Source: Clostridiales bacterium (lineage in GTDB: Bacteria > Bacillota > Clostridia > UBA1381). From it: DNA of 64,000 bases. Positions 10,486-62,350 of this stretch are shown here, in pieces. A program made the translations under genes and the position numbers. Positions within the stretch are counted from its first letter, which is position 1. Each line of letters begins with the position of its first letter. The stretch covers positions 1 to 64,000 of the forward strand of contig JAQXZB010000017.1 of NCBI GenBank assembly GCA_029226975.1, in the 5' to 3' direction. The notes under the pieces were generated by a model, which was not told the origin of the DNA, searched no databases, and saw only the letters and a program-made list of their open reading frames with translations.

Positions 10486-10500
10486 TCCTAAAACAAGTGA

Positions 10501-10536
10501 CAGCGGCAAAGCCCAAATAAGTTTTGCCGCTGCTTT
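10501..10536. terminator. Bidirectional terminator between metY and purL
   Basis: Ten-base perfect stem CAGCGGCAAA (10501-10510) with TTTGCCGCTG (10523-10532) and a 12-base loop. CTTTT follows on the plus side and A-rich sequence precedes it for minus-strand transcripts. It lies exactly between the two convergent genes. Confidence 0.85.
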
Positions 10537-10541
10537 TATTC

Positions 10542-35295: not shown

Positions 35296-35310
35296 AAAAT
35301 CACCTATATT

Positions 35311-35339
35311 ATTATATCTTTTTTTCTTGACAATATCAA
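35311..35339 (-). promoter_or_regulatory. Sigma-A promoter of the araC-type gene
   Basis: Minus strand TTGATA (35334-35339), 17 bases, TATAAT (35311-35316). The leader would be only about 10 bases, just enough for the ribosome binding site. Confidence 0.65.
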
Positions 35340-35370
35340 GTCTTTTGCGCAAAAAAATAATAATTTACCT

Positions 35371-40872: not shown

Positions 40873-40884
40873 TTATATTCCTCC

Positions 40885-45024: not shown

Positions 45025-45037
45025 GCCTTTTCGCCCC

Positions 45038-47728
45038 CTATCTTATTACTACCACAGCACGAACCTTTCCGTTTGTGGAGAATACACTTATAACATCACT
45101 GCCTACCGCAACCGCTCTCATATCCGCAAATTCAGCAGACTTGTCTGCCCTATTGAATATAAATACAGGCGGCGGGTTGTTTTTGTAAACCTCATAGTAA
45201 AGGCTCGATTCCTCATCAAGGGCAGGGCTAACGTTTATTCTTGTAACCCATCTGTTGTATTGATTTGATACATAATTATAATCCGCATCGAGAGCATAGC
45301 CCACAAATATGGTGTATGACGAGCTTGCGCTGTCAAGCCCGAACTGCGGCATTACATCATAGCTTTTTACGATTTTGAGGTTTTCTATTTTCCCCTCGTT
45401 GTTCAAAAGGTAGGCAACAAGGCTTCCGCGTCTGGGCACCTCATATTTCTCATACTCTCTGTACGCCTCGGTAATATCATATACCTTTTCCTTGCCCTCA
45501 TCATTTAACATGGTAATCTTTAAGGTTTCCTCATTGCTGTCCTCATCCATTACCGTAACAACATCGGTAACAAAACCGACCTCGCTTGTGCTTGTAAGCT
45601 CGCCCACCGTTCCGTCCTTCATGGGCGCCGTAACCACAATGAGGTCAACAACGTGCCTGTCCTCGTTCATTTCATAGCTTATAACATTATAGGTCTTGCC
45701 GTTGCTCATCTCAACATTTGCAAGGTAATCCCTTGAAGAAGGCTTTTCCGAGTCGGGAACGCATATGGTTCTCGTTTCAAAATCAACGCCGAATCCGCCC
45801 TTGTCGGTGTTGTCGCCGTTGCCCTTGGCAAAGGTTCTCTCATATGAATTGTATACCTTTTTATCTCCGCCTCTTTCAGGCTTTAAAATCACCACTGAAT
45901 CAATCTCATCCTTGCTGTTTAAGGTATATCTTACAGCCTTATTTAAAATATACTCCGCGGCGGTTTTTGAGCTTAGCTTTCTTTGCTCCGTACTGCCGTT
46001 TATGCCGGATACATATACATTTGCCGCCAGGTACATATTCCTAAGCTCCTCGTTGCTGGCAATAATCTTGGAGATGATTGTTGCGTCGCCGCCGTCCTCA
46101 TTCTCCTCCTCTTCCTTTTTCTCGCTGAGCTTATTGGGAATAATCATCTTTACTCCGGCATAGGTGGCGGAATCGTCCATGAATATACTTGCGGCATAGC
46201 CGTAATTGGTAGAGGTGGTAATTGTCTTTATATAAACAACCTCTCCCATATAATTCATATATGCTCTTATATCCCTGTCAAAAACAGCATTATCTTTGAC
46301 CTCGTCCCGTTCGGTGGGATACACCTTTCCGTTTATGGTAACGGTATCGTCATCACACGCCGTAAGCTTTCCGTCAACAAATGCGTCGCATATAATCCCC
46401 TCGGTAAAATTCTTATCATCGCTTTGGCATATGCTGATTACATTATCCTTTAATACATCCTCTGCCGAAGCGGGCGTTCCGTCGGATTTATAGAGAACTA
46501 TTCTTTTATTGCTGTTTCTTTCCGTATCTACATCTATGTATTTCTTTCCGCCCAGTAAAGTGCTGTCCGAAAAATAAATCATTCCCCTCTCGGCGTTTAC
46601 GTCCTCGACAATCACGCTTACATATGATTTATATAAAATAATATCTATATCATTATCACTGTCCGAGGTATTGTTAATAAGCGTCAACTCACCCTGTTCA
46701 AGATTTAAAAACTCCTCAGGATTCCAGGAAGGAACCGGGCGGTTGTTTTTTAATACCCGAACACCCGGTATAAGCTTCTTTGTTTTTGAGGTATTGCCCT
46801 CGGTGTAATAGGTTATGCTTGAAGCATCCGCTTCCTTTATGTCCTTTACCGGAATTGTTATAACCTCGTTGTACTCCGAAGGACGCAGACTTATTATTTT
46901 ATTGCTTTCCTCGGTATTTACATAATATACAACTCTTTGACCTATATATCTTGCCGCAGCCGGGTCGTTTATGTAATATATGGAATTGTCAATCTCTATC
47001 TGTCCCGAATTCATGTCCGACAGTGCATTATTCATATATGCGTCCACTGTTGCGGTAACGATACCCTCGCGCTTTTCAACACTTCCGTCCGCTACGGTTG
47101 TGAACTTATCTCTGAAGGTGGTGTTTGAGATTACATAATCAACCTTGCCTCCACGCATTTCGGTTGTCATAATCTTTACATACAGTGCATTATACACCAT
47201 TCTTGCGGTAGCTTCCCTTGTAAAGGGATAGCTGATATTTACACCCTTTAAAAGCCCGATTGTTCCCGCCGTTAATGTATATCCGCCGGGGTATCCGCCG
47301 TTGTTTTCGCCCTGAATGCTGTAGCCCAAACAGCATACAAGTATTTTACATATATTTTCATAGCTTAAATATTCGTCGGGACCGAACTTATTGTCGCCGA
47401 TGCCGCTTATGATACCCAAATGCGACAGCATAACAATATAGCCGTTGGCCCAATGATCCGTCCCCACGTCATCATACATTTTCTCATTCTTGTATGATGC
47501 CGCCGCATCCTCCATACTCATCATTCTTGATGCAATAGCTGCAAACTCCGCTCTTGTGACGGGCTTTTCCAAATGAAACTCACCGTCGTCATCACCCTCC
47601 ATAACCTTGAGGGTTTTAAGCTCAAAGACAATATCGTCCATTGTAAGGGCGGCATAAGCGGGCATTGCAGCAGCCGCAAACAGCATCGCGGCAGCTATAA
47701 TTATCGCTGTCAGTCTTTTTTTCATCAT
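45038..47728 (-). CDS. Large surface protein with N-terminal SLH repeats
   Basis: 896 residues from the ATG at 47728, which has AAAGGAAAG upstream. An upstream frame to 47794 would bury the signal peptide. The signal is KKRLTAIIIAAAMLFAAAAM. Three SLH repeats follow (about 26-185; FHLEKPVTRAEFAAIASRMM, HWANGYIVMLSHLGIISGIG). The remaining 700 residues are beta-rich, repetitive in character and match no family I can name. Short segments such as RYIGQRVVYYVNTEESNKI recall S-layer and cell-surface proteins of Clostridia. It may be a main S-layer subunit or scaffold. It is the first gene of the SLH operon behind a tandem-repeat promoter (47830-47890). Confidence 0.78.
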   Translation of the reverse strand: MMKKRLTAIIIAAAMLFAAAAMPAYAALTMDDIVFELKTLKVMEGDDDGEFHLEKPVTRAEFAAIASRMMSMEDAAASYKNEKMYDDVGTDHWANGYIVMLSHLGIISGIGDNKFGPDEYLSYENICKILVCCLGYSIQGENNGGYPGGYTLTAGTIGLLKGVNISYPFTREATARMVYNALYVKIMTTEMRGGKVDYVISNTTFRDKFTTVADGSVEKREGIVTATVDAYMNNALSDMNSGQIEIDNSIYYINDPAAARYIGQRVVYYVNTEESNKIISLRPSEYNEVITIPVKDIKEADASSITYYTEGNTSKTKKLIPGVRVLKNNRPVPSWNPEEFLNLEQGELTLINNTSDSDNDIDIILYKSYVSVIVEDVNAERGMIYFSDSTLLGGKKYIDVDTERNSNKRIVLYKSDGTPASAEDVLKDNVISICQSDDKNFTEGIICDAFVDGKLTACDDDTVTINGKVYPTERDEVKDNAVFDRDIRAYMNYMGEVVYIKTITTSTNYGYAASIFMDDSATYAGVKMIIPNKLSEKKEEEENEDGGDATIISKIIASNEELRNMYLAANVYVSGINGSTEQRKLSSKTAAEYILNKAVRYTLNSKDEIDSVVILKPERGGDKKVYNSYERTFAKGNGDNTDKGGFGVDFETRTICVPDSEKPSSRDYLANVEMSNGKTYNVISYEMNEDRHVVDLIVVTAPMKDGTVGELTSTSEVGFVTDVVTVMDEDSNEETLKITMLNDEGKEKVYDITEAYREYEKYEVPRRGSLVAYLLNNEGKIENLKIVKSYDVMPQFGLDSASSSYTIFVGYALDADYNYVSNQYNRWVTRINVSPALDEESSLYYEVYKNNPPPVFIFNRADKSAEFADMRAVAVGSDVISVFSTNGKVRAVVVIR

Positions 47729-47829
47729 TTTTTCTTTCCTTTCTGTTACGCATATTTTTTGGACGGTTCCGCTCGCAGACGGACGAAACCGCAAAAAAGC
47801 ACAACACAGCTGTAGCTTCTTCTGATTTT

Positions 47830-47890
47830 AGTATAACATATGAACAATATGTAAACAATAGGTTATATTTTTCCCTAAATGGCTATATTT
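47830..47890 (-). promoter_or_regulatory. Tandem-repeat promoter of the SLH operon
   Basis: Plus-strand view: ATAGGTTATATTT (47858-47870) and AATGGCTATATTT (47878-47890), exactly 20 bases apart. Minus-strand -10 box TATACT (47835-47830) begins 23 bases from the inner repeat edge. One of five promoters in the window with this arrangement. Confidence 0.7.
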
Positions 47891-47911
47891 AACCCTTGAT
47901 TTATCATATAT

Positions 47912-47944
47912 ACAAGAAAGCCGCGCCCGGCGGCTTTCTTGTTA
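47912..47944 (-). terminator. Terminator of the ABC importer operon
   Basis: Thirteen-base perfect stem ACAAGAAAGCCGC (47912-47924) with GCGGCTTTCTTGT (47930-47942) and a 5-base loop. The stop codon of the permease gene overlaps the stem base. On the minus strand the descending arm is CTTTCTTGTATAT. Confidence 0.8.
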
Positions 47945-48775
47945 TCCCTTTACTCCCGATGAGGTTACTCCCTCAACAAAATATCTCTGGCAGAACAGGA
48001 ACATCACTATAATGGGCAACAGCACCAGTGTTGCCGCAGCCATCTGCGCTCCGTAGTCCTGTACCTGTCCCGATGAAAACAGCTTGATACCAACCGATAA
48101 CATCTGCTTCTTTATATCCGAAATATACAGATACGGGCTCATGTAATCATTCCATGTCCATACAAAGGAGAACAGCATCATTGTTGCTATTGCCGGCTTT
48201 GCAAGGGGTACGATTATGCTGTAGTAAATCTTAAAATGATTACAGCCGTCAATTTTTGCCGCCTCGCTTATGGAGTCGGGTATGCTTATAAATGACTGCC
48301 TTAACAGGAATACAAAGTATACGTCAACGCAGCTTGGTATAATGATTGCCCACATTGTATTTAAAAGCTTTAAGTTTTTAAATATAATGTATCTGGGCAA
48401 AATCATAATATCCGACGGAATCATCAGTGCCGCAAGCAGCACCAGAAATATCGCGTCCCGGCCCTTAAACTGAATTTTCGAGAAGCCGTATGCCGTAAGG
48501 GTTATTAAAAACAGCTTCAATAAAAGCGTTATTCCCGTCATTAAAATCGTGTTCCAGTACCACAGCGGGAAATTGTAATATTCACTGTTAAAAAGTCCCG
48601 TTATGTTCTTTAGAGTGAAGTTTGACGGAATAAGCTCAAAGGGCTTCATCAAAACGTCACCGCTGGGTTTAAAGGACGAGGACAGCATGAATATAAACGG
48701 ATATATGCACATAACTCCGATTACAAGCATAATAATCGTTACTATCCATTTTGTAACCTTATTTTTCTTATACAT
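47942..48775 (-). CDS. Carbohydrate ABC transporter permease (MalG/LplC type)
   Basis: 277 residues with six membrane segments. The EAA loop reads EAAKIDGCNHFKIYYSIIVP near residue 180, and the C-terminal end is FCQRYFVEGVTSSGVKG, as in the MalG/AraQ/LplC class. It forms the channel with the partner permease encoded 15 bases upstream. The ATPase is missing from the window, as is usual when a shared MsmX-type ATPase serves several importers. The substrate is probably an oligosaccharide from the secreted enzymes encoded nearby (inference). Confidence 0.93.
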   Translation of the reverse strand: MYKKNKVTKWIVTIIMLVIGVMCIYPFIFMLSSSFKPSGDVLMKPFELIPSNFTLKNITGLFNSEYYNFPLWYWNTILMTGITLLLKLFLITLTAYGFSKIQFKGRDAIFLVLLAALMIPSDIMILPRYIIFKNLKLLNTMWAIIIPSCVDVYFVFLLRQSFISIPDSISEAAKIDGCNHFKIYYSIIVPLAKPAIATMMLFSFVWTWNDYMSPYLYISDIKKQMLSVGIKLFSSGQVQDYGAQMAAATLVLLPIIVMFLFCQRYFVEGVTSSGVKG

Positions 48776-48790
48776 ATTCTGCGCCTCCCA

Positions 48791-49684
48791 TCAATAATTT
48801 ACCCATTTTTTCTGTCCGCGCCATTGGATAAGCGTGATGAGCATAACCACCGCAAACATCACCATAGCCTGGGCGCTTGCAAAGCCTGTCTGATACTTAA
48901 CAAATGCGCTGCGGACAATGCTTATTGCCATAACCGTTGTCGCCTGACCCGGTCCTCCGTCGGTAAGGGACTGAATAACCGTAAAGTTCTGAAGCGAGGT
49001 TATAATAGAGCTTACTATAAGGAAAAATGTTGTCGGCGAAAGCATGGGAATAACCACATTCTTAATTCTCTGCAGCTTGTTGGCTCCGTCTATCTGCGCC
49101 GCCTCCTCAAGCTCTGCGGGAACATTCTGCAAGGCACCCAAGTATGTAATCATGTTAAGTCCCACGCCCTTCCATACCGCAATGGCTGCAACCGTCGGCA
49201 GTGCGAACTTATCCGACAAAAGCAAAAGCGGCGGATCCTTTACACCGAGAGCACCAAGCAATGTCACAAGCGGACCTCCCGTACCGAGAAGCAGCTTGAA
49301 CACAACCGCTACGGCTACCATGTTCGATACATAAGGTAAAAATACCATTCCTCTTATTGTATTTTTAAAATATACTCCCTTGTTAAGGAGCAGTGCAAGT
49401 ATGAATCCAACGACCATAATCAGCGGAACATAAACCAGGGAATATAGCCCCGTTCGTCCCAGAGCCGCCATGACCTCTTTGTTTTTAAACATCTCGATAA
49501 AGTTCTTTAGTCCCACAAAATGCATACTGTCCATTTTTGTAAGATAGGTCATATCGGTAAACGAAAGCACTATCGAGAAAATGAACGGTATTCCGGTAAA
49601 TATCGTAAACAGCAGTACATACGGGCTGATAAAGGCATATCCGGTCCTGTTTTCTTTACGTTCGAGTGCGCTGCCCTTTTTCAC
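48791..49684 (-). CDS. Carbohydrate ABC transporter permease (MalF/LplB type)
   Basis: 297 residues with six membrane segments. The N-terminus RTGYAFISPYVLLFTIFTGI is typical of sugar permeases of the UgpA/LplB class. The EAA motif is EEAAQIDGANKLQRIKNVVI, contacting the ATPase. It lies between the binding-protein gene (70 bases, containing a hairpin) and the second permease. Confidence 0.93.
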   Translation of the reverse strand: MKKGSALERKENRTGYAFISPYVLLFTIFTGIPFIFSIVLSFTDMTYLTKMDSMHFVGLKNFIEMFKNKEVMAALGRTGLYSLVYVPLIMVVGFILALLLNKGVYFKNTIRGMVFLPYVSNMVAVAVVFKLLLGTGGPLVTLLGALGVKDPPLLLLSDKFALPTVAAIAVWKGVGLNMITYLGALQNVPAELEEAAQIDGANKLQRIKNVVIPMLSPTTFFLIVSSIITSLQNFTVIQSLTDGGPGQATTVMAISIVRSAFVKYQTGFASAQAMVMFAVVMLITLIQWRGQKKWVNY

Positions 49685-49713
49685 TTTTCTTCCTTCCTTT
49701 CTTTTTTATATTT

Positions 49714-49743
49714 AATGCGCCGACTTCTTAAAGCCGGCGCATT
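49714..49743 (-). repeat. Hairpin between binding-protein and permease genes
   Basis: Nine-base perfect stem AATGCGCCG (49714-49722) with CGGCGCATT (49735-49743) and a 12-base loop, without a T-run on the minus strand. Such structures often protect or partly end the message after the highly expressed binding protein. Confidence 0.65.
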
Positions 49744-49754
49744 TTCGCAGCGAA

Positions 49755-51113
49755 TTATTTCGTTTCCTCTGCAATTGCCGTATCGGCACGGCTTGTTATG
49801 GATGACACAGCCTCATCTATGGGCTTTGAGCCTGCTCCGTAAAGCTGAGCTTCTTCTATAATAATCTGATTGATTGTTGTGTCCGCCGGGCCTATAATCT
49901 TCTCCGCTATAACCTTTCTGTCGGGATCGAACCAAGCCTTCTTAAATTCCTCGACAGTTATAGCGTCATTTGCAAATGTGGGCACAAGCTTCTCTGAAAT
50001 ATAATTTGTGATTTCCTCATCACTCAGGTCAACTCTTGCCGGAATACGTCCGTAGCCCAAGGTATACTGATTTTCCGCCATGCAGGCAATTGCCGCAAAA
50101 GCCGCGTCCTTGTTCTTGCTTGTTGTGGGAACCGCATAGCAGCCTGTTACAGCCAGTGTTGACGGCTCCTGTCCCTCGGGATAGGGCATGGGCAAAATAC
50201 CGCACTGCCAATCTCTGGGGTACTTTTCCAAATCCGGAAGCATTGACGCAACCCAGCCGCCGCATACAAACATTCCCATTTTACCGCCCGCAACAAAGGA
50301 GTTCCAGGGATATGTTCCGGAAGCATAGGTAATGCTGTCTGGCTGAATTTTATCCTTGTTGCCCAAGCCATAGAACCATTCAAGGCTTTCTTTAAACAGC
50401 GGATCGGAGAAGTTTGACTTCGTCTGATCCTCATTATATGCCTTAAATCCCTTTTGGAAAGCATACATATAATTGTAGTTGTCATAGTCAAGCATGAACG
50501 AGCCGTAAATACCCTTTGAAGCGTCCGTCAGCTTCTTTGCCGTTTCAACATACTTTTCCCATGTCCAGCCGTCTGCCGAAGGATATTCAAGCCCCGCTTC
50601 GTCAAAAAGCTTCTTATTGTAATAGGTGAGCCAAATATCGCTAAAGGCAGGCAGTCCGTAAACCCTGTCATCGCTGTAGATGGCAAGATTATCTCCGAAC
50701 TTTTCCTCCATGTTGTAATTTGCATTGACTGCCAGCTCATCAAGCGGTGTAAGCACTCCCGCGCTGTAGTATGATTTGAGCTTTGAATCCGTTCCATAGA
50801 GAATATCCAGCTCATCTCCCGCCATAAGGCTTACCAGTGCTTTGTCAACCTCTCCGGCATTGGTATTGGGAACTATTGTAAATTCAATGTTAATTCCCGT
50901 CTTTTCCCTTACCAGCTCGATAAGCTCCTGTGTTTCTCCTCCCTGGGTTGCCGATTCGGAAACCGCATAATGCAGCGTTACTCCCTCATAGGGCTTTTCG
51001 CTGTTTGTTGCCGCCGTTGGGGACGGCGCGTTCTTCTCGGTACAGCCGGCTGCCATTGTGCATAAAGATGCCGCCGCCATAACCGCCGCAATACTCCTGT
51101 TTAATAATTTCAT
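49755..51113 (-). CDS. Extracellular sugar-binding lipoprotein (family 1 solute-binding protein)
   Basis: 452 residues. The lipoprotein signal ends in TMAAGC, with the lipid-bearing cysteine at residue 24. The mature protein matches family 1 binding proteins: KPYEGVTLHYAVSES, PAFSDIWLTYYNKKLFDEAGL and KMGMFVCGGWVASM. It is anchored on the outer membrane face and delivers sugar to the two permeases encoded next. AAGGAGG stands 8 bases before the ATG. It has its own tandem-repeat promoter (51159-51219). The cargo cannot be read from the sequence. Confidence 0.92.
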   Translation of the reverse strand: MKLLNRSIAAVMAAASLCTMAAGCTEKNAPSPTAATNSEKPYEGVTLHYAVSESATQGGETQELIELVREKTGINIEFTIVPNTNAGEVDKALVSLMAGDELDILYGTDSKLKSYYSAGVLTPLDELAVNANYNMEEKFGDNLAIYSDDRVYGLPAFSDIWLTYYNKKLFDEAGLEYPSADGWTWEKYVETAKKLTDASKGIYGSFMLDYDNYNYMYAFQKGFKAYNEDQTKSNFSDPLFKESLEWFYGLGNKDKIQPDSITYASGTYPWNSFVAGGKMGMFVCGGWVASMLPDLEKYPRDWQCGILPMPYPEGQEPSTLAVTGCYAVPTTSKNKDAAFAAIACMAENQYTLGYGRIPARVDLSDEEITNYISEKLVPTFANDAITVEEFKKAWFDPDRKVIAEKIIGPADTTINQIIIEEAQLYGAGSKPIDEAVSSITSRADTAIAEETK

Positions 51114-51158
51114 TCCTCATACCTCCTTGGTGTTTGAATAACTTTTTGTGTTATCTAT

Positions 51159-51219
51159 ATTATACAATGGAATTATACTTCTTTCCATAGGTAGATTTTT
51201 TAATCCATGGTCTATTTTT
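51159..51219 (-). promoter_or_regulatory. Tandem-repeat promoter of the ABC importer operon
   Basis: Plus-strand view: ATAGGTAGATTTT (51187-51199) and ATGGTCTATTTTT (51207-51219), 20 bases apart. Minus-strand TATAAT (51164-51159) begins 23 bases from the inner repeat edge. The copies are the most diverged of the set, but the geometry is exact. Confidence 0.65.
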
Positions 51220-51237
51220 GTACAAATTATGAATTTT

Positions 51238-54200
51238 TTATTTGGAATATGCAAGGGGTACCATGTTATCATCCCATACATAAACTCTAAGCGTTTTTCC
51301 CTCTGCCTGCGCCGCCGCAATTTCCGTATCGCCCGGATTTGCGGTTATCTTTTCTCTTTGTACCTTATAAAGAGTATTATCCTCGTTATAGACAGCGGCC
51401 GTAACCGTTGCTTCAACGGGAGTGCCGGTTTCATTTTTTACCGTAATTTTCCCGTTTTCACATAAAACCGACAGCGGCATTTCGCCCTTCACGGTCACTC
51501 TGAAATCCTTGTATGCCGTAAATCCGTCATCGCTGTTTACTATTTTGGTGGTCATTATAACATCGCAGTCCGCTGCCGCTCCGTAAAATGTTCCGTCTGC
51601 TGCTATAACCTCCGGTCTGCTGCTGCTCCATGAAATCTCTGCTCCCTCCTCGATTGATGAGGGCAGTATGAGATTTTCTCCCACGCTTTGCGGATTTTTT
51701 GTCAGCTTATCCATTGTAAGCTCCTCAACGGTATTGTCAACGGCCTGAACGGGACTTTTTTCAATCTCGCAAAGTCTGAGCCTTTCAAGCTTTACAAAAT
51801 CCCCCGGAGTCATATTCTTGTTTGCCGCAAAGCGTATTCCCGACAAATATGCACCCGCCTGGGTCGTTCCCCAGTTGGTCATGACAAAGGTATCCGCCGA
51901 AGCCCCCGAGTTTAATGTGCCGGTGGTTTTTGAAGCCTGGGTCGACCCGTCCTTAAATACTTGGAATGTGGATGTATCGGAATCGAACACAACGCACATA
52001 TCCACAAAGGAAGCGGTATTGCTCCACATGGGCGAAGCGCTTGCCGTAGTATTCAGCTTGTTATTATAAACGCTTATGGTTCCCGATGCGTTTTGGAATC
52101 GTCCGACACTTGTGCCGGGATTTTTGTTTCTCGCGCCGATAAAGTCTATCCACGAGCTGCTGCTTGTATGCGGCAGAGCAATGCGCATTTCAACCGAGTA
52201 TTTGCCCTTAAAATCAGTTCTTCTCACCGTCACGCGTTCGTCACCGCCGTAATTTTCCTCAATCTGCTCAAAATTCTTCAATGCCGAATATACCGTATTA
52301 CCGTCACCGACTCCCGAGGGAACCGTAACCGCCGAGGACTTGTTTATAACAAGTGCGCCGCCTTTAACCGCAAAAGCCCCGTAATCCGCATTCTCGTTCA
52401 CTCTCATGGGATCGTCCGTTTCGCTCCACCCTTGCTCCTGAAGCTCATTCTGGGCCATATCCGCCCCGGTATAATCCTCCTCGTCAATAGGTGTTCCAAA
52501 TCCCTTCCATTCATTTGAGGTTTCAAGCAGCACAAACGCTCCGCTGCTTTCCCTGCCGTTTTCCATTGCCGTAACCTTATAGGTGGTCTGCTTCTTTGCC
52601 TCCTCCTCGCTTACGTCAAATTCAAAGACAGTATTCTCTGCCGTACCCATAAGCTCATAATCGGCCGCGTTTTCCACTGCCCTGTACACTCTGTACTCCT
52701 CGGCGCTGTCCGTTCCCGTCCATTTTACGGCAGCATGAGTTGAAGTGCTGTATTTTACGCTTACATCGGACGGAGCGCTTATACTTGTGCGCGCCGGTAT
52801 GTCGGATATAACATACTCCTCACCCTTTTGGGTGTTAAAGGTTATCTTGTCCGTACCCTGTGCCGTAAATGACACCCCATTCCCCTTTGAGTCCGTTACC
52901 TTTGCAAGAGCAATATTGTCAAAGCCCACGCTTACGCTTTCGGTATCTGCGCGGGAACGGATTTTCGCTTCGGTTACGGTGCTGTTTTTCCAGTCAATGT
53001 CCACCTCAAAATTTCCCCTTGCAACCAATCCGTCCACAGAGCCGCTTGTCCATACCGGAGAGAGTGCCGGCAAAAGCTCTATATATCCCGCATGGCTTTG
53101 CATCAGGGTTTCGATAACACCCGCAACAGCACCCAAATTTCCGTCTATCTGGAAGGTAGCCGTAGGATGCGTGTTCCACAAATTCGGATTTGTCGAGCCT
53201 GTTAAAATCTTCTTGTAGGCTTCATAGGACTGTACTCCGTCCTTTGCTCTTGCCCATAAATTCATTCTGTGCGCCAAAGCCCAGCCCGGAAGCGAGCTGC
53301 TCATTCCTCTCTTTTGCAGAGTAACCTTTGCTCCGTCAAGCCATGCCGGAGTATTATCGTTTATCGATGTGCCCGGATAAAGCCCCTTAAGCTGTGAAAC
53401 ATGCCTGTGTCCCGCCTCGCCGGAGGTTCCGTCCGCATACTGATTATAATGTCCCTCGTCGCGGTATTCCTTTACCTGTCCGTCAAGACCTATAAGCACC
53501 GGGTCAAGCTTATCTATCTGCATATCGATTACGCTCTCAAGCTCCGTATCGGGATTTTCCAAAAGAGCGCCCAGTATCTCGGTTTCCTTGTAAGCTTCGT
53601 AGGTCATCTGTTGGTCAAAGGCACAGCCCGGCGATATTCTCTTGTTTGCATTCTCAGGCGATGCCGAATGTTCTATAAGATATTTTCCGTCATGCTCCAC
53701 AACGGCTCTTGACAAAAATTTTGCCACTCCGCCCACAGCCTTGTAATCATGCTCAAGCTTGCCCGGGTCTCTTGTAAAATCATACTGGTCATAAAAAAGC
53801 ATTGCCGTAAGCGCCGAGGTACCCGGTCCCGAATGGGTCGAGCCGGTGGGCGGTCCGTCCAGTGCGTAAGGGTATGCTCCTGTGCCAACGCCCCAGCCGT
53901 TTTCGTGGTCTGTGACATTATCCTTGTCCGCGCCCCATACCTTTAGGTAATTGTCCGCGCCCGTTTCGGCAGCGTACATATACGCCTTGTTGTAATCCTC
54001 ATAGGACTCAAACATTTCCGCCAGATTTGCCGTAAATACCGGCCAGTAATTCATCTGCACATTTATGTTGTGCCAGTAGCCCGCCGTCCATGGCGCGCTG
54101 TCATATGCGTTCCATGCGCCCTGCAAATGTGCCGGAAGCGCGCCTTTTCGAGATGAGGCTATGAGCAAATATCTTCCGTACTGGAAATACAATTCCTCCA

Positions 54201-55254
54201 TATACCGGCGGTTTACGGATGCGTCCTTGTATTTTTCAAGCATAACGTCCGTTGTCATATCCGGGTCATACACTCCGCCCAAATCCAGTTCCACGCGGTC
54301 AAAATATGTTTTGTAATCGGCAATATGCTCCGCCTTTACCGCGTCATAGCCCTTTTTAACCGCCGCGTCAAGCCTTGCGCTCACCTTATCATGGGGAGCC
54401 GCCTTGCCCGCAAGCTTTTCCTTTGCCGGTTTGGTAAACACCTCCGGCTCTAACTCATAATTGGTATCGAGTGCAGCCATAACAACCACGCTGTCCGCTC
54501 CCTCTACGGTAAGCGTACTCTCGTCCCCCGTTACCGTTCCCCCGTCATTTATAAGCTTTATCTGTGTTTCATACTGTATCTGATAATACTCCATAAGTCC
54601 GCTCAGGGTAATGCGCTGTGCTGCCGCATCTGCCTCAACCGTTCCGGTCTTGCCCTGACCGTCCCCCTCAGTCATGCCGTAGTCCTTAATATATGGATTT
54701 TCGGGTCTTAGAGTAAAGGAAATCTTCCCCGGCTCTGACGCGCTTATTTTTATTGCCAGAACATTGTCCGGGTAGCTTGCTATGTACTCCCTGTGATAGG
54801 TTACTCCCTCATACTCGTAATCCGCCGCCGCAACGGCAGTCCTCAAATCCAGACTTCTTCGGTAATTTGACGAAACGGCAAAATCCTGATTAAAATCCAT
54901 GTAAATATCCGCAAAGCTGTTCAAGCCGCCGCGGCTGTGCAAAAGCGCACCTGTCGGGTCGCTTCTGTAGGGATTTGCCAAGGTCTTGTCCGCAATCTGT
55001 ACCCGATCGGTATCAAGCCTTGCCCATATGCTTGCGCCCATATATCCGTTGCCTATGGGCAGGCTCTGCTCATCCCAGCCCTTTCTGTCCTCAACGCTGT
55101 TGTCAAGTATGGGCGCGGTATTGTCGCAAGGCTCGTCATACCACAGAATAAGCGGCTTCTTCTCGCTCTCCTGTGCCAAAGCAATGCCCGCCCCCGGAAC
55201 AGCTCCCAGTACCATACAAGCCGTCAGCGCGGAAGAAACAATTCTTTTAATCAT
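51238..55254 (-). CDS. Secreted GH95 alpha-L-fucosidase, multimodular
   Basis: About 1338 residues from the ATG at 55254, where AAAGGA is spaced 8 bases. An ATG at 55263 is in frame but abuts its site. Signal peptide about 1-27. The GH95 catalytic part (about 35-790) carries SLPIGNGYMGASIWA and the asparagine pair WHNINVQMNYWP (about 390-400). It also has GHRHVSQLKGLYPG and THPTATFQIDGN (aspartate near 702), matching catalytic residues of AfcA-type 1,2-alpha-L-fucosidases. Then come a fibronectin-like domain (825-900), an unnamed beta module (925-1160), an Ig-like domain (1175-1255) and a C-terminal domain ending VYVWDDNMVPLAYSK. No SLH. Alpha-L-galactosidase activity is possible. Confidence 0.92.
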   Translation of the reverse strand: MIKRIVSSALTACMVLGAVPGAGIALAQESEKKPLILWYDEPCDNTAPILDNSVEDRKGWDEQSLPIGNGYMGASIWARLDTDRVQIADKTLANPYRSDPTGALLHSRGGLNSFADIYMDFNQDFAVSSNYRRSLDLRTAVAAADYEYEGVTYHREYIASYPDNVLAIKISASEPGKISFTLRPENPYIKDYGMTEGDGQGKTGTVEADAAAQRITLSGLMEYYQIQYETQIKLINDGGTVTGDESTLTVEGADSVVVMAALDTNYELEPEVFTKPAKEKLAGKAAPHDKVSARLDAAVKKGYDAVKAEHIADYKTYFDRVELDLGGVYDPDMTTDVMLEKYKDASVNRRYMEELYFQYGRYLLIASSRKGALPAHLQGAWNAYDSAPWTAGYWHNINVQMNYWPVFTANLAEMFESYEDYNKAYMYAAETGADNYLKVWGADKDNVTDHENGWGVGTGAYPYALDGPPTGSTHSGPGTSALTAMLFYDQYDFTRDPGKLEHDYKAVGGVAKFLSRAVVEHDGKYLIEHSASPENANKRISPGCAFDQQMTYEAYKETEILGALLENPDTELESVIDMQIDKLDPVLIGLDGQVKEYRDEGHYNQYADGTSGEAGHRHVSQLKGLYPGTSINDNTPAWLDGAKVTLQKRGMSSSLPGWALAHRMNLWARAKDGVQSYEAYKKILTGSTNPNLWNTHPTATFQIDGNLGAVAGVIETLMQSHAGYIELLPALSPVWTSGSVDGLVARGNFEVDIDWKNSTVTEAKIRSRADTESVSVGFDNIALAKVTDSKGNGVSFTAQGTDKITFNTQKGEEYVISDIPARTSISAPSDVSVKYSTSTHAAVKWTGTDSAEEYRVYRAVENAADYELMGTAENTVFEFDVSEEEAKKQTTYKVTAMENGRESSGAFVLLETSNEWKGFGTPIDEEDYTGADMAQNELQEQGWSETDDPMRVNENADYGAFAVKGGALVINKSSAVTVPSGVGDGNTVYSALKNFEQIEENYGGDERVTVRRTDFKGKYSVEMRIALPHTSSSSWIDFIGARNKNPGTSVGRFQNASGTISVYNNKLNTTASASPMWSNTASFVDMCVVFDSDTSTFQVFKDGSTQASKTTGTLNSGASADTFVMTNWGTTQAGAYLSGIRFAANKNMTPGDFVKLERLRLCEIEKSPVQAVDNTVEELTMDKLTKNPQSVGENLILPSSIEEGAEISWSSSRPEVIAADGTFYGAAADCDVIMTTKIVNSDDGFTAYKDFRVTVKGEMPLSVLCENGKITVKNETGTPVEATVTAAVYNEDNTLYKVQREKITANPGDTEIAAAQAEGKTLRVYVWDDNMVPLAYSK

Positions 55255-55288
55255 TTTCCTCATCCTTTCCGTTTTATTCTATATTATT

Positions 55289-55349
55289 ATTTTACTATTG
55301 TTTCACAGCTTTTTACATAGGCTGTTTACGCAGAAAATAGGCTACATTT
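55289..55349 (-). promoter_or_regulatory. Tandem-repeat promoter of the GH95 gene
   Basis: Plus-strand view: ATAGGCTGTTTAC (55317-55329) and ATAGGCTACATTT (55337-55349), 20 bases apart. Minus-strand TAAAAT (55294-55289) begins 23 bases from the inner repeat edge. Confidence 0.7.
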
Positions 55350-55350
55350 A

Positions 55351-55372
55351 AGGGGATGCTCTCGCATCCCCT
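55351..55372 (-). terminator. Hairpin after the metallophosphoesterase gene
   Basis: Nine-base perfect stem AGGGGATGC (55351-55359) with GCATCCCCT (55364-55372) and a 4-base loop. It lies 8 bases past the stop codon and directly borders the GH95 promoter repeats. The T-run is weak. Confidence 0.65.
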
Positions 55373-55380
55373 CATAAGCA

Positions 55381-58300
55381 CTATTTGGTTATCACTGCAT
55401 ACGGAATCATATTTTTATCCCAAACCATAACCTTGATTGTTTTTGCGCCCTCATTCGCCGTAAAGTCGGTACTGATTGTATCCGATGTTTTATCCGCGAT
55501 TGTGCCGTCTGCCTTAACAAGTGACAGCAGATTGCTGTTTTCATCGTACTGAGCAACGTAGAGGGACATTTCCTTTACTTCGCCGCTTCTGTTCTCTATC
55601 TGTGCCTGTGCGGTTGCAGCTTCTGCGCTTACCGAAGCCTTTACATATTTTAGCTCATCGCCGTTTTCACCGCTTATTTCAATATTGTTGAGCCAGAATA
55701 TATTGGTAACGGCACTGTTTGTTATGTCAAAGCTTACAGCGTCAAGAGACTTTACATCGGTATTGATAAACTCCGCCGAGTCCACAAGCTTGGTCTTTTC
55801 AGAATATTCCGTACCCTGATATGCGCCGCTTTCCGTTTTTCTCGGTACGAGATATGCCGAATATGTACCTGTGGTCATGTCAAGCTCAATTCTTGCATAC
55901 AGCACCATTGCCGCAACCTTTGCATTATCGTCCGCACCCTTGTATTTTAAGGAGCTTCCGATTTTGCTGCCGTTTGCGTCAGTGAAGTACGCCTCACAGG
56001 TGTTTTTGTAATCTCCCGTTGACTGAGCAAATTTAATAGCCGCAATATCCTTTTCATCGCCCGATGCATTTCTGCCCTTAAGGGTCATTGTCATGCTGCC
56101 GCTGTCTTTATAAAGCACCTCAAACTCCGATTCGTAAACATACTTTCCGCCCTCAAAGCGTGTCTGTGACGGATTGTTTGTTATATCCTTGGCAAAATCG
56201 ATTCTGCCCATGTGCTGATTTCCCTTATCGGTTTTCATGGAAAAACGCAGTGCCGGCACATAGCAGGTATTATCGTCATTTTCCTTTACCACACTCCATA
56301 TAGCGGAGCCGTTTGCCGTAATTCCGTAATTTTCCGTAGTGATTGCCTTTAGATACTCTCCCTCAACCTTGTCGGCATACATGGAGTATGCAACGCTCTT
56401 TTTGGAGTTTACCTTATTTATATATGCCTCAATATCCGCATCCGTCAAGTCCTCGTCAGCCATAAGCATACGTCCCTCGTTAAGCAGCGCACCGTTCTCA
56501 ATCGTACCGCCGCAAAGAAGCTCGTTTAACTCGTCAGCCTTTGTAAGCGACGCTCTTTGTACATACTTGTTATCAAGCTCCGCAACCTCCTTGGCTGTAA
56601 ATGCGCCGTTGTAAAGATTCGCAAATACTATCTTTCCCGAAAATGCGTTCTGAGCCGATGTTTGATCCTCAAATCCATTATCCGTCGGTACAGGATTGTA
56701 ATCACCGCCTATGACCATTCCGAAATTGGGATCGTCCTGGGCGTAAAATTCCATTGCTCCGCTTGCCGCATGAGTATCAGCCAACACTCCGTTATTGTAT
56801 ACCTTGACGTTCTCGCCGTCATAGGTAACGGTTAAGTGATAGTATTTTCCGGCTTCAAGCGTAAGCGTGCTTCCGGGATAGGGATCTTTTACCCATGCTC
56901 CGTTATGACGTACATAAGCCTCAACGGTACCGTCCGCCGTTGTTTCAATATCAAAGCCGGAGCCTTGTGCCGCACCTATAACATTGTCCGAGCCGTTAAA
57001 CTTTGACGGGCTGAACATTACATCGATTGTATATCCGTCCGCTCCCTGCATAAGCTCTTTTCTTCCTGCGTCCATCATAACCTTGAAGAAATTCGGCGAG
57101 CCGGTCTGTCCCTCTTCTCTTTCAAAGGACGCTTCATACATTTTAAGCTCACTGTTATATGAAATCGGTGTGCTTCCGTAAACTCTGGGCTGCAAATCGT
57201 AAAAACGTGCATATTCCGAGGTATCCTGTATTGTGCTGTCGTTAAAGGATACCTTTGCCAGTGCCGCCGGCTTAACCTCTCTTGCCGCAGTGGTAAATAC
57301 CTCTGTTTCAATGGTGTTTGACGACTCCTGATAGAAGCTGTCATAGGCTGTTATAACCGCCTTGTATTGCGTCTGCGGTTCAAGCCCCGATACGTTCCAA
57401 TAGTTCTCGGCCGGTGCCTCATCTCCCTGCCAGTAATATGATGAAACCGTATAGCTCTTATCCGTATTTTGAGTTTCCTGATTTATAATATCAACTCTGT
57501 AGTGACCTACGTCCGTATCGTCATCCTTTGCCTGGGTAAAGGTCACCTTGCAGCCGCTCTCGCTTACTCCCGAAACCGCTGCCGTCGCATCTTGGGTAAA
57601 ATACGGAGCGGTTGTATCCCTTGTATCCGTATATTGCCAATTTGCCTTATCGTTTACATTTATTACCCACGGCTCCTTAAACTCTCTGTTTCTGTAAAAG
57701 TCCATACGATGAACGGTAACCACATTGTCCTCGCCCACCTCTATATAATAGCCGGAGCTTTCATTTTCATTGCTGCCGAATCTCTTGGGCTGGAAGGACT
57801 CGTCCCAGCAGTCCTCAATTTCCATGTTGTTTACCGCACCGGTATTAAGTGAGGTAAATTCACCCTGGTGTATGGAACGCTCATTTGCCATATCCCAGTG
57901 TGAGTGACCCGAGAAGGTTATGGCGTTTTGGCAGTTCTTTAAGCTGTCATAAAGCTCGTTTGTTCCCCAATAATTTGAGGTATAGGGGCTTCCATTTCTC
58001 ATGCCGGTTACGGGGAACGAACCGTAAACCGTATCCTTTACATTGGGGTGCATAGCCACAAATATCGGCTTGCCCTCCGCAGCCGCCTCCTCCGAAGCAG
58101 CCTGCACCTCTTGGTCAAACCAGCTTATGGTTTCGGGCGAGTGTATATACTCATATGAGCTTGACTCATCATTTGCTCTTTGAGTATCCTGGCTCACCGT
58201 TATAAACTTGTAGCCGTATATGTCATATACATTATTGGGCGAGGTAAGCGTTTCGTCATAGTCCGAAAGATATGTAACGAAATTGCTTTCCTTATTATCC

Positions 58301-59607
58301 TTGGCGTCATGATTTCCTCTTACAAACATAACCTTTGTATGGCTGCCCTTGGGAATTACCTCCTCAAGGTCCTTTACAAATGCCTGATACTCCGCCGCAT
58401 TGCTGTTATGGGTTATATCACCGGGAATCATCAGCACATCAAGCTGTTCAATGCCGCCTGCCTTTTCAATTACCTGCTCTGCTGCCGCCTTGAACTTTTT
58501 GCCTGCATAGCCGTATGCGTCAAGGCTGCTGTCCTGGGAAGCTCTGCCGTATTGCAAATCCGAAAGCACTCCGATTTTTAAGGCTACACCCTCCTCATGT
58601 CCCTGGGTGGGTACCGGCGTGGGTATGGGAGTTGCTTCTATGACCTCCGGAGTGTATTCGCTTACAGAAACATTTTTAATCCATACCGCATTTCCGTAAT
58701 AGAAGTGCATAATGTCATAATTGAAGCCGATAAACTCCTGTGCGTTCTTATTTATCATAGAAGCGTTTTCAACCAAAAGATTTTCCTCGGAAGGCTCTGT
58801 GGCCGCATATTCGCCGTCCTCGTCCTTTCTGGGAACAAGCCATACGGAATAAAGCTTGTTTACAAAATCCAGCTTTACTCTTATAAACAGCATCTCTCCC
58901 GCATTGTCATAACTGTAGTTTGACGTACTCTTTATGGTTGCCTTGTTTCCGATTGCTTTTCCCGCCGCGTCAAGAGCGTATGCATATGCCGCATTCGCCT
59001 TGCCGTTTACCGGCTTTGCCTGAGGAATAAAACGAACCGTTCCCAATACGGCGCTGTTTCCGTCCGCATCCTTTCCGTTTAAATCCAGATCAATATATGT
59101 AGTATCATCTTTAATCTGAACCGCAAACTCGGACTCATAAACATATCCGCTGCCGTTCATTGCTGCCGGTTTATTTACCGTATCCGCGGTAAAATCCCAA
59201 GTCATAGCCGTACACGATGTGTCAGCCTTAAGGGTTCTTGAAGCAAATCTTAAGCCCTCAACACCTATATTTTTTATAGAACTTATTCTCTGTACGCTCC
59301 ATATGCCCTTAGTTCCGGTATCAGCCGTTATGCCGTATCTGTTGTAGTCTTCCGCGGCAAGACCGGTATTTACGGGGTAAATGGTTTCTCCGTCCGCCTT
59401 TGTCATGTTGTCCGAAGAATAGGCTACCACCACATTCTGTTCTGCCTCATACTCCGGCTGTGCCTCCGCCATAGGCTGCGGCATTATCGCCTCATAAACC
59501 GTTTCTTCCTTTGTAATTTCCGTATCCGTTCCGTTTACGGCCATTACCGCCGGGGCAAAAGCTCCGAGCTGTGCCACTGCTGTAAGCAGCGCCAAAAATT
59601 TTTTCAT
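55381..59607 (-). CDS. Giant secreted metallophosphoesterase with LamG and unnamed beta modules
   Basis: 1408 residues with a signal peptide (about 1-23). Order: unnamed beta module A (about 75-325); calcineurin-like phosphoesterase (about 345-600) with all metal motifs IGVLSDLQYG, MIPGDITHNSN, VRGNHDAKD and SGHSHWDMAN; a fibronectin-like domain (about 675-770); a LamG/concanavalin-like domain (about 835-1015; YYHLTVTYDGENVKVYNNG); a second module A (about 1089-1312); and a C-terminal domain ending VMVWDKNMIPYAVITK, like that of the GH95 protein. It cleaves phosphomono- or diesters outside the cell; the target is unknown. It has its own tandem-repeat promoter. No SLH or sortase motif. Confidence 0.85.
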   Translation of the reverse strand: MKKFLALLTAVAQLGAFAPAVMAVNGTDTEITKEETVYEAIMPQPMAEAQPEYEAEQNVVVAYSSDNMTKADGETIYPVNTGLAAEDYNRYGITADTGTKGIWSVQRISSIKNIGVEGLRFASRTLKADTSCTAMTWDFTADTVNKPAAMNGSGYVYESEFAVQIKDDTTYIDLDLNGKDADGNSAVLGTVRFIPQAKPVNGKANAAYAYALDAAGKAIGNKATIKSTSNYSYDNAGEMLFIRVKLDFVNKLYSVWLVPRKDEDGEYAATEPSEENLLVENASMINKNAQEFIGFNYDIMHFYYGNAVWIKNVSVSEYTPEVIEATPIPTPVPTQGHEEGVALKIGVLSDLQYGRASQDSSLDAYGYAGKKFKAAAEQVIEKAGGIEQLDVLMIPGDITHNSNAAEYQAFVKDLEEVIPKGSHTKVMFVRGNHDAKDNKESNFVTYLSDYDETLTSPNNVYDIYGYKFITVSQDTQRANDESSSYEYIHSPETISWFDQEVQAASEEAAAEGKPIFVAMHPNVKDTVYGSFPVTGMRNGSPYTSNYWGTNELYDSLKNCQNAITFSGHSHWDMANERSIHQGEFTSLNTGAVNNMEIEDCWDESFQPKRFGSNENESSGYYIEVGEDNVVTVHRMDFYRNREFKEPWVINVNDKANWQYTDTRDTTAPYFTQDATAAVSGVSESGCKVTFTQAKDDDTDVGHYRVDIINQETQNTDKSYTVSSYYWQGDEAPAENYWNVSGLEPQTQYKAVITAYDSFYQESSNTIETEVFTTAAREVKPAALAKVSFNDSTIQDTSEYARFYDLQPRVYGSTPISYNSELKMYEASFEREEGQTGSPNFFKVMMDAGRKELMQGADGYTIDVMFSPSKFNGSDNVIGAAQGSGFDIETTADGTVEAYVRHNGAWVKDPYPGSTLTLEAGKYYHLTVTYDGENVKVYNNGVLADTHAASGAMEFYAQDDPNFGMVIGGDYNPVPTDNGFEDQTSAQNAFSGKIVFANLYNGAFTAKEVAELDNKYVQRASLTKADELNELLCGGTIENGALLNEGRMLMADEDLTDADIEAYINKVNSKKSVAYSMYADKVEGEYLKAITTENYGITANGSAIWSVVKENDDNTCYVPALRFSMKTDKGNQHMGRIDFAKDITNNPSQTRFEGGKYVYESEFEVLYKDSGSMTMTLKGRNASGDEKDIAAIKFAQSTGDYKNTCEAYFTDANGSKIGSSLKYKGADDNAKVAAMVLYARIELDMTTGTYSAYLVPRKTESGAYQGTEYSEKTKLVDSAEFINTDVKSLDAVSFDITNSAVTNIFWLNNIEISGENGDELKYVKASVSAEAATAQAQIENRSGEVKEMSLYVAQYDENSNLLSLVKADGTIADKTSDTISTDFTANEGAKTIKVMVWDKNMIPYAVITK

Positions 59608-59656
59608 ATTAGTTCACCTTTCCTTTCGTTGATTGTATTTTCGTTCCTGTAATTTG

Positions 59657-59716
59657 ATTATATATATAGTCTGCAAAAAAATAAATAAGCTATTTTTTCT
59701 TTTATTGGTTAATTTT
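59657..59716 (-). promoter_or_regulatory. Tandem-repeat promoter of the metallophosphoesterase gene
   Basis: Plus-strand view: ATAAGCTATTTTT (59685-59697) and ATTGGTTAATTTT (59704-59716), 19 bases apart. Minus-strand TATAAT (59662-59657) begins 23 bases from the inner repeat edge. It lies back to back with the lyase promoter. Confidence 0.65.
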
Positions 59717-59758
59717 ATACTAAAGTGCAAGTTTTGCCCATTTATAGGTCAAAATTGC

Positions 59759-59819
59759 AAATACAGCATATTTATGAAAAATATAGCCTATTGATTTTAC
59801 TTCCCCTCGACTTTAAACT
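59759..59819 (+). promoter_or_regulatory. Tandem-repeat promoter of the PL8/GH29/GH112 operon
   Basis: AAATACAGCATAT (59759-59771) and AAATATAGCCTAT (59779-59791), exactly 20 bases apart and 11 of 13 bases identical. TAAACT (59814-59819) begins 23 bases from the inner repeat edge. Confidence 0.7.
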
Positions 59820-59860: not shown

Positions 59861-62350
59861 ATGAAGCTGAAAAGATTTATATCGATTTTCCTCGCCCTTG
59901 CGGCGCTGTCTCCGGCGGCTTATGCCAAGGATGCCGTTTATATGGAGGAAAACAGCACTACCGTAATAGATACCGGAAAAACCCATGAGCTGTCCGAGCC
60001 TGTAAAGAACATAGACGGAACGGTTTATGTTCCCGTAAGAAGCGTGCTTGAGCTTTTGGGCTACAATGTATATTGGGAGGACGGAAAGCTTGTTATAGGG
60101 AAACAGGACGAAGCTGTTCTTTCCGATATGATAAATGACGGGTATCTTGCCGCAAAGCTTGACGGTGCGGTATCGGGAGATCTCTCGGATATAAGGAAAA
60201 TAAAGGACGCTTTAAAGGAAAGTGTTTACAATAAGGACGCCGACCCGACAGAGGCGCTTTCTCTTTGGAAGGAGAACGGCAGCTTTGAGGGCATAGAGTA
60301 TTACAATCCCGACCGCATGGTCTGGACCGCAAACAATCATGTTAAATATCTGCTTACCATGGTTCAGGCTGCATACTCACCCGAAAATAAGTATTACGGC
60401 GACAAGGCTCTTAAAGAGAAGATTGCAAAATCTTTGGATTTTTGGGCGCACGGCGGCAGAGTTGAATGTGATAACTGGTGGCAGCAGGAGATCGGTGTTC
60501 CTCAAACGGTTGTAAATATTCTTATTCTAAACCCCGATGAAATTACCGACGATGTAAGAGCCGTTTTAAATGCCGAAGCGGCAAAGGGCTCCATATTTAA
60601 CGAAACCACAACCGACCGAATGAAAGAACGTCCCGTTGCCAACACCGGTGCAAATTTAGCGGACAAGCTTCTTACAAGCTTTAAGATTGATATTGCAACG
60701 GAAAACGAAGCGGAGCTTTGGGACGCGATACATCTTATGGAAAATGAGTTTCGCGTATTTGAAAAGGTGCGTACCGACGAGTACGGCGAGGACTCCGACG
60801 GTATAAAGGCGGATTATTCCTTCCATCAGCATGTTGACCAGATACAGGGCGGTAGCTATGGCGAGGTTATGATGAATGACTTTTCGGCGATTATTTCCTA
60901 TTTAAAAGGCACAAAATACAAAATTGCCGACAATGCCTTAAATGAGTATGCCAACTGGCTTTTGGACGGTCAGCAGTGGATATTCAGAAACAATTACCGA
61001 GAGCTTACCACAGCAGGCAGGCACATCACCCGCCCCAACGGCATAATGGGCTTTAGAGCATCCATGCAAAAGGCAGTGGACGCCCTTGAGGGATATACGC
61101 AGATAAAGCGTTATGACGAGCTTATGGCAATGAAACAAAACCGCCTCGGCGACAGTGATACCTTTAACGGAAACCGCCATTTCTGGCTTTCGGATTATAT
61201 GTCCCATAACCGCACAGGGTATCATGTGGGCTTAAAGCTTTCGTCAAACCGCACCAAAAACGGCGAGGTTGTAAACAATGAAAATCTTTTGGGCTACTAC
61301 CTCTCCGACGGCGTTACCACCCTTATGCAGGACGGTGACGAGTATTACAACATAATGCCCCTTATTGACTGGAACAAGCTGCCGGGTACCACAACTCCCC
61401 AGGGCGCCCTAAAAAATCTTAACGACTGGGCGGACTGGAACGGCGAGCATTTGTGGAACTGGAAGGGCAGCTGCCACTTCGTGGGCGGCGTTTCGGACGG
61501 AATGTACGGCGCGGCGGTAATGGATTATTCCCTTGACGGTCTTGCGGCGCATAAGGCATGGTTTATGCTTGATGACCGAATGATAGCTTTGGGCAATCAA
61601 ATAAACGCATATTCGCCCTATGATATTTACACAAGCATAAATCAGTGCGTAAAGGACGGGGATATTAAAATCGTTTCTTCATCATCTGTCCGCGACGCAA
61701 AAGCCTTAGAGAGCGTAAAGAAGGGCGAAGCGGTTTTGCATAACGGCATAGGCTATATCTTAAAAAATGACGCAAAGCTGTCCTTTGAGGATAAAACCGC
61801 AAAATATGAGCTTATAAACTTAGGCTCCGCATACAAGGACATAGAAGAAAGCAATACCATATTCTCTTTAGGCATTGACCATGGCAAAAAGCCCGAAAAT
61901 GCTTCATATGAATACACCGTTCTCTTTAATGCGGACGAAGCAAAGCTAAAGACGGAGCTTTCGGCTTCCAAAATAAGCGTTATAAGAAACGATGACGCTA
62001 TGCAGGCGGTTTATGACTATAACAATAAAATTGCCGAAGCAATCGTTTGGAAGGCCGGTGATTTGGAGCTTCCCTCCGGTCTTAGTGTAAATATAAACAA
62101 GAAATGCGCGCTTATAATAAAGGAGCTTTCGGACGGTACGCTTGAAATAACCGCTTCAAATCCCGACAATACACCCAAGGATTTGCAGCTTGTGGTAAAC
62201 AGGGTATTGCCGGCAGACGGTGTAAGCGTTGTAAAGGAAAGCGACACCTCCACAAGGATTAAATTCCGTTTAAACGAGGGCGTTTACAGCGGAAGCAGCA
62301 GCACCTATAATTCAAAAACCGGCTTTAGCGAGTTTTTGACCAACGAATAA
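59861..62350 (+). CDS. Secreted polysaccharide lyase family 8-like protein
   Basis: 829 residues with a signal peptide (about 1-22). Residues about 24-80 resemble the small copper-amine-oxidase N-terminal stalk domain (DGTVYVPVRSVLELLGYNVY). The PL8 alpha/alpha toroid follows, with CDNWWQQEIGVPQTVV (about 204) and the likely catalytic residues: asparagine in TGANLADKL (about 262), histidine in DYSFHQH (about 320), tyrosine in GGSYGEVM (about 332) and arginine in AGRHITR (about 388). A beta super-sandwich comes next (about 430-690). PL8 enzymes split hyaluronan, chondroitin, xanthan or related uronic-acid polymers by beta-elimination; which one is not decided. It is first of a plus-strand operon. 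Confidence 0.85.
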   Translation: MKLKRFISIFLALAALSPAAYAKDAVYMEENSTTVIDTGKTHELSEPVKNIDGTVYVPVRSVLELLGYNVYWEDGKLVIGKQDEAVLSDMINDGYLAAKLDGAVSGDLSDIRKIKDALKESVYNKDADPTEALSLWKENGSFEGIEYYNPDRMVWTANNHVKYLLTMVQAAYSPENKYYGDKALKEKIAKSLDFWAHGGRVECDNWWQQEIGVPQTVVNILILNPDEITDDVRAVLNAEAAKGSIFNETTTDRMKERPVANTGANLADKLLTSFKIDIATENEAELWDAIHLMENEFRVFEKVRTDEYGEDSDGIKADYSFHQHVDQIQGGSYGEVMMNDFSAIISYLKGTKYKIADNALNEYANWLLDGQQWIFRNNYRELTTAGRHITRPNGIMGFRASMQKAVDALEGYTQIKRYDELMAMKQNRLGDSDTFNGNRHFWLSDYMSHNRTGYHVGLKLSSNRTKNGEVVNNENLLGYYLSDGVTTLMQDGDEYYNIMPLIDWNKLPGTTTPQGALKNLNDWADWNGEHLWNWKGSCHFVGGVSDGMYGAAVMDYSLDGLAAHKAWFMLDDRMIALGNQINAYSPYDIYTSINQCVKDGDIKIVSSSSVRDAKALESVKKGEAVLHNGIGYILKNDAKLSFEDKTAKYELINLGSAYKDIEESNTIFSLGIDHGKKPENASYEYTVLFNADEAKLKTELSASKISVIRNDDAMQAVYDYNNKIAEAIVWKAGDLELPSGLSVNINKKCALIIKELSDGTLEITASNPDNTPKDLQLVVNRVLPADGVSVVKESDTSTRIKFRLNEGVYSGSSSTYNSKTGFSEFLTNE

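Follow-up and report, generated by a model that had tools for sequence, protein, structure and literature searches.

Which regulator, if any, reads a tandem sequence element that stands before five glycan-related transcription units of a Clostridiales genome is the question raised by the locus described here. The window, i.e., the whole stretch of DNA that was analyzed, comprises 64,000 nucleotides; the gene neighborhood beyond its end and the orthologous loci of other genomes were included where they bear on this question.

Tandem element and promoter geometry

The element, AAAWAYAGCCTAT, is 13 bp long and occurs in tandem at five promoters of the window (Table 1). The sequence-only reading had described two 13-base copies at each of these promoters, a fixed distance to the -10 box, and no good -35 box; all five pairs were recovered at the positions given, the distance from the inner copy to the -10 hexamer is exactly 22 nt in each case (5/5), and the best -35 matches at 17-nt spacing are poor (3-4 of 6 positions, and 2-4 of 6 in the relatives discussed below). 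The copy starts are 20 bp apart at four of the five promoters, and 19 bp apart at the metallophosphoesterase promoter. Every half-site contains two boxes that are conserved over 15 promoters: positions 1-6 are A-rich, and positions 8-13 read RCCWAT/RCCTAT. An AraC-type domain, with its two HTH motifs, would be expected to recognize two such boxes per half-site. A tandem operator upstream of the -10 box, overlapping or just above the -35 region, is found at the five window promoters and at ten promoters of the relatives, all with 22 nt, and supports the earlier proposal of an AraC-type activator on two direct half-sites that touch the -35 region.

Table 1. Promoters, genes, and operons of the cluster, with the two-component system beyond the window end (positions carrying the prefix C17)
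Feature	Position	Strand	Details
SLH operon promoter	47830..47890	-	Outer copy 47878-47890, inner 47858-47870, -10 TATACT 47830-47835
ABC importer operon promoter	51159..51219	-	Outer copy 51207-51219, inner 51187-51199, -10 TATAAT 51159-51164
GH95 gene promoter	55289..55349	-	Outer copy 55337-55349, inner 55317-55329, -10 TAAAAT 55289-55294
Metallophosphoesterase/LamG promoter	59657..59716	-	Outer copy 59704-59716, inner 59685-59697, -10 TATAAT 59657-59662
PL8/GH29/GH112 operon promoter	59759..59819	+	Outer copy 59759-59771, inner 59779-59791, -10 TAAACT 59814-59819
AraC-cupin protein	34489-35352	-	Candidate regulator of the sequence-only reading
SLH operon	36955-47794	-	Pfam; intergenic gaps 12-13 bp
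SLH-anchored heparinase II/III-like lyase	36955-40872	-	SLH operon; Pfam
SLH/F5-F8C protein	40885-45024	-	SLH operon; Pfam
SLH protein	45038-47794	-	SLH operon; Pfam
ABC importer operon	47942-51113	-	Pfam; orthologous to importers of relatives' loci
Two ABC importer permeases	48791-49684, 47942-48775	-	Pfam
Solute-binding protein of ABC importer	49755-51113	-	Pfam
GH95 enzyme with Ig-like domain	51238-55263	-	Pfam
Metallophosphoesterase with LamG-like domain	55381-59607	-	Pfam
PL8 lyase	59861-62350	+	Pfam; closest solved relative (PDB) chondroitinase AC
GH29 fucosidase	62460-63620	+	Pfam
GH112 phosphorylase	C17:63639-65768		PL8 operon, beyond window end
373-aa protein	C17:65856-66977		Downstream of GH112, PL8 operon, beyond window end
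YesN-type response regulator (RR)	C17:67325-68902		Response_reg 4-112, HTH_18 446-522
YesM-type histidine kinase	C17:68877-70766		dCache_1, HAMP, His_kinase (PF06580), HATPase

The five promoters lie inside 12 kb, and a recent duplication could have made them alike without any shared regulator. Between window promoters, however, the elements are ~70% identical, whereas identity is only ~30% in the 7-nt linkers and the 22-nt spacers; hence the likeness is limited to the sites and does not reflect recent copying. The downstream genes are unrelated, and the same element recurs in distant genomes (see below), so that duplication is scarcely credible as an explanation.

Scored with a matrix from their own ten half-sites, the pairs of the five promoters reach 25.9-34.3, whereas no pair scores above 24.5 in 150 random 64-kb sequences with matched dinucleotide composition; this comparison is partly circular, since the matrix was trained on the five, and an independent matrix was therefore built from the other genomes alone. 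With this relatives-only matrix, the five promoters take the first five places among distinct window sites (29.3, 23.0, 17.0, 15.0, 14.0), led by the ABC importer promoter with the SLH operon promoter second; the next unrelated window site scores 10.6, and 0.25 sites scoring at least 14.0 are expected per 64 kb, as compared to five observed. The transfer of matrices between window and relatives works in both directions.

A genome-wide scan of the kind suggested by the sequence-only reading locates the full design only at these five promoters of the 2.8-Mb genome. The inner element followed by N22 and a -10 box has 32 matches with one mismatch allowed, and the outer copy is present only at the five window promoters among the 30 of these 32 that were re-scored (all except those on C109 and C123). 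Without the -10 box, the pair pattern retrieves the same five sites and one near match (C15:41991) from the whole genome; the remaining matches carry two to three mismatches, at a frequency like that of the controls. Across 70 family genomes, the pair pattern yielded only the genome's own sites and two sites with three mismatches, again at control-like frequency. The near match (C15:41991-42023; L098:5992-6024) is a pair with one mismatch upstream of a PL8 paralogue, with its -10 box at 23 nt instead of 22 and a fair -35 box (TTGACC); it is a possible sixth member of the regulon, and stays a candidate because about one such site per genome is expected by score alone. A two-mismatch pair near another YesN paralogue (C27:8700) was rejected, as it has no -10 box at the right distance.

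The gene set and the adjoining two-component system

The genes behind the five promoters combine import, surface anchoring, and glycan cleavage. The heparinase II/III-like lyase is fused to SLH domains and a CBM96 module, and is probably a polysaccharide lyase anchored at the cell surface. For the GH112 enzyme, the closest solved structure is a lacto-N-biose phosphorylase; the 373-aa protein encoded after it is secreted-looking and without any Pfam family, and its gene is followed by a short open reading frame (~55 codons, by eye) and then by a strong hairpin (z -4.4) located between this reading frame and the response regulator gene (C17:65856-67245; L032:2856-4245). With its PL8, heparinase-like lyase, GH95, GH29, and GH112 genes, the gene set points to a fucosylated, uronic-acid-containing glycan. 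The GH112 family also includes galactosyl-rhamnose phosphorylases, and for this reason a host glycan is given here as the likely target and not more firmly. The earlier view that the element defines a regulon of glycan genes is supported, although its size has to be revised from at least nine to at least eleven genes.

Directly after the PL8/GH29/GH112 operon, ~3.3 kb past the window end and ~8 kb on from the five promoters, follows a two-component system of the YesM/YesN type (C17:67325-70766). The response regulator combines a receiver with a C-terminal AraC-type HTH domain, and the kinase an extracellular Cache domain (dCache_1) with HAMP, His_kinase, and HATPase domains; the dCache_1 match (E 2.8e-5) is below its curated cut-off, the other three are above theirs. 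Within its own genome, the RR has no full-length paralogue above 28% identity. The RR and kinase genes themselves are not preceded by a pair, and a consensus scan upstream of the RR gene revealed neither promoters nor terminators.

The source of the orthologous RR loci was a set of 84,980 species genomes; the RRs of these loci are 38-45% identical to the RR found past the window end. In eight other genomes, mostly Lachnospiraceae, the paired element comes after the RR and kinase orthologues in the 20/22 geometry, and in seven of the eight the pair stands at the orthologue of the window ABC importer; conservation in related genomes, which the sequence-only reading had named as a check, is thus observed beside the RR orthologues. 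RR, kinase, and the orthologous importer follow each other in L047, L048, L049, L051, L052, and L053, all with the 20-bp spacing and 22 nt to the -10 box; in Blautia L050, the pair with this geometry comes after the kinase, and a second pair directly precedes a GH95 and heparinase II/III operon, enzyme types that the window encodes too. Near the gene for the solute-binding protein, L047 and L053 carry an additional pair. The eighth locus (G702), found afterwards, has the pair between kinase and solute-binding-protein gene, with GH95, heparinase, and GH88 genes beside it; GH88 was seen in two relatives. L049 matches well in geometry and weakly in its diverged sequence, and the inner half-site differs slightly between the window (AYAGCCTAT) and the relatives (WCYACCTAT). 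The importers of the element-bearing loci are 51-58% (binding protein) and 62-73% (permeases) identical to that of the window, which lies ~16 kb from the two-component genes; being orthologous to importers that adjoin RR orthologues, the window importer has so kept its operator despite this distance. As a separate observation, the RR gene of L050 (Blautia sp. Marseille-P3201; L107; near 10075-11490) is broken by one in-frame TAG in this assembly, and both operators beside it are well preserved.

The pattern of pair, N22, and -10 box has seven hits in seven whole relative genomes (27.6 Mb); these fall into six genomes and are all at RR loci, with zero control hits. None of 391 sampled genomes of the class has a further RR orthologue at E<=1e-75 besides the genome's own; a search of 70 family genomes added none, and 397 sampled genomes of the Blautia family added one (G702). 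As a caveat, only eight loci enter the comparison, because RR orthologues are rare, and two of these loci (Hungatella) are nearly alike. What the genomes display directly is a set of sites with fixed geometry, restricted to the cluster and linked to RR orthologues across genomes.

Candidate regulators and proposed mechanism

The presence of the element follows the identity of the RR DNA-binding domain, which is 55-69% identical to that of the RR beside the cluster where the element is present, and 29-46% where it is absent. The AraC-cupin protein of the window, which the sequence-only reading had put forward as regulator, belongs to the AraC family, and its gene lies 1.6 kb from the SLH operon end; yet the protein's identity to the element-linked RR amounts to only 33% in the DNA-binding domain, its closest orthologues (46-48%) occur in two genomes of the same family (G053, G054) in which no match to the pair pattern was found, and the flanks of its orthologues contain no strong pair (best score 15.3). 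In other genomes the element sits at the RR orthologue. Its choice as the favored regulator was probably wrong, and we consider it improbable that this protein binds the paired elements as their activator. The other option of the earlier reading, a two-component regulator of AraC type, gains strong support from the YesM/YesN pair that adjoins the PL8 operon and from the element at its orthologues in eight genomes.

The element could also be read as a determinant of an alternative sigma factor, in the manner of an extended -35 region instead of an activator site; a -10 distance that is fixed in every case and a poor -35 box would agree with this. A sigma factor determinant nevertheless does not match a design of two copies at 20-bp spacing, of which the outer one stops ~42 nt before the -10 box; the -10 boxes are ordinary TANAAT boxes, and the element is confined to RR-linked loci. 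We regard this reading as very improbable.

The paired element is very probably the operator of the YesN-type RR, which in its phosphorylated form would activate five promoters with weak -35 boxes. We infer binding, phosphorylation, activation, and inducer as follows. An extracellular glycan fragment would activate the kinase, and the activated kinase would phosphorylate the RR; two RR molecules would then occupy the head-to-tail half-sites, one at about -67/-55 and the other at about -47/-35 (with the start of the -10 box set at -12), and the A-rich and RCCTAT boxes of each half-site, which are spaced by about one helical turn, would be read by one AraC-type domain. From its position at the -35 region, the RR may recruit RNA polymerase to promoters that have a good -10 and a poor -35 box, so that activation by the phosphorylated RR would make up for the weak -35. 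The predicted outcome is joint induction of the importer, the operon of the SLH-anchored lyase, the GH95 gene, the phosphoesterase gene, and the PL8/GH29/GH112 operon.

Known systems and wider meaning

In Caldicellulosiruptor bescii, tandem-repeat operators have been predicted for AraC-type two-component regulators of sugar importers (AviRS, BxgRS, MosSQ, and others); these operators have large spacers, and several lie upstream of the promoter as predicted activator sites (PMC8579813). The locus described here resembles them in placing an AraC-type two-component system with tandem operators beside a CUT1 ABC importer, a likeness that concerns the layout (PMC8579813); in contrast to the C. bescii systems, which have other regulators and plant cell wall substrates, one operator here links five units that include surface-anchored enzymes. 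XylS at the Pm promoter binds two 15-bp direct repeats, in each of which box A (5') and box B (3') are spaced by about one helical turn, and shares with the present case two direct half-sites of two boxes and a site that overlaps that of RNA polymerase (PMC5481539); a weak -35 box touched or overlapped by the proximal half-site, as at Pm-type promoters, is likewise found here. XylS, however, is a one-component, benzoate-binding regulator of TGCA/GGTA boxes, whereas the candidate here is a response regulator with A-rich and RCCTAT boxes. The pneumococcal YesMN-type system TCS07 also stands over glycan-degrading enzymes; the first study found no operator (PMC7075642), and the motif proposed later, CTWWWWWWAG, is a different one (PMC11034029). 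Human-milk-oligosaccharide loci of Roseburia unite ABC importer, GH112, GH29, GH95, histidine kinase, and regulator in one locus (PMC7335108); the parts of that publication compared here mention neither PL8, nor an SLH-anchored heparinase-like lyase, nor an operator, of which the first two are present in our locus together with a proposed operator. Given the C. bescii tandem operators and the Roseburia gut loci, this kind of control, by tandem sites of AraC-type two-component activators, is already known; the main texts consulted for this comparison contain neither the operator sequence nor its fixed geometry, nor do they assign it to this RR.

Two diverged paralogous YesN-type systems in Hungatella and Blautia (L134, L135) carry AAATCGTA twice, at a spacing of exactly 20 bp, in the gap between the kinase and binding-protein genes and 34 nt before a TATACT box. 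It is conceivable, though rather doubtful, that a 20-bp head-to-tail operator near the -35 region is a general rule for YesN-type RRs beside sugar importers, with half-site sequence and exact offset varying with the HTH domain; a survey of 24 diverse YesN-type loci showed no clear peak of 20-bp self-similarity before the importer genes, and the binding-protein gene was recognizable only at five of them and at the two known paralogue loci. If the rule were true, the operators of a large, poorly mapped class of regulators could be read from sequence. Sequence-defined operators for YesN-type RRs are scarce: none was reported for TCS07 initially (PMC7075642), and a study of XydR in Clostridium cellulolyticum pointed to the lack of a known consensus site for the AraC/XylS family (PMC3572039). 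For the present system, operator, promoter position, likely regulator, and regulon can be proposed together from independent genomes, and a clostridial glycan degrader may in this way couple its importer to surface-anchored lyases and fucosidases.
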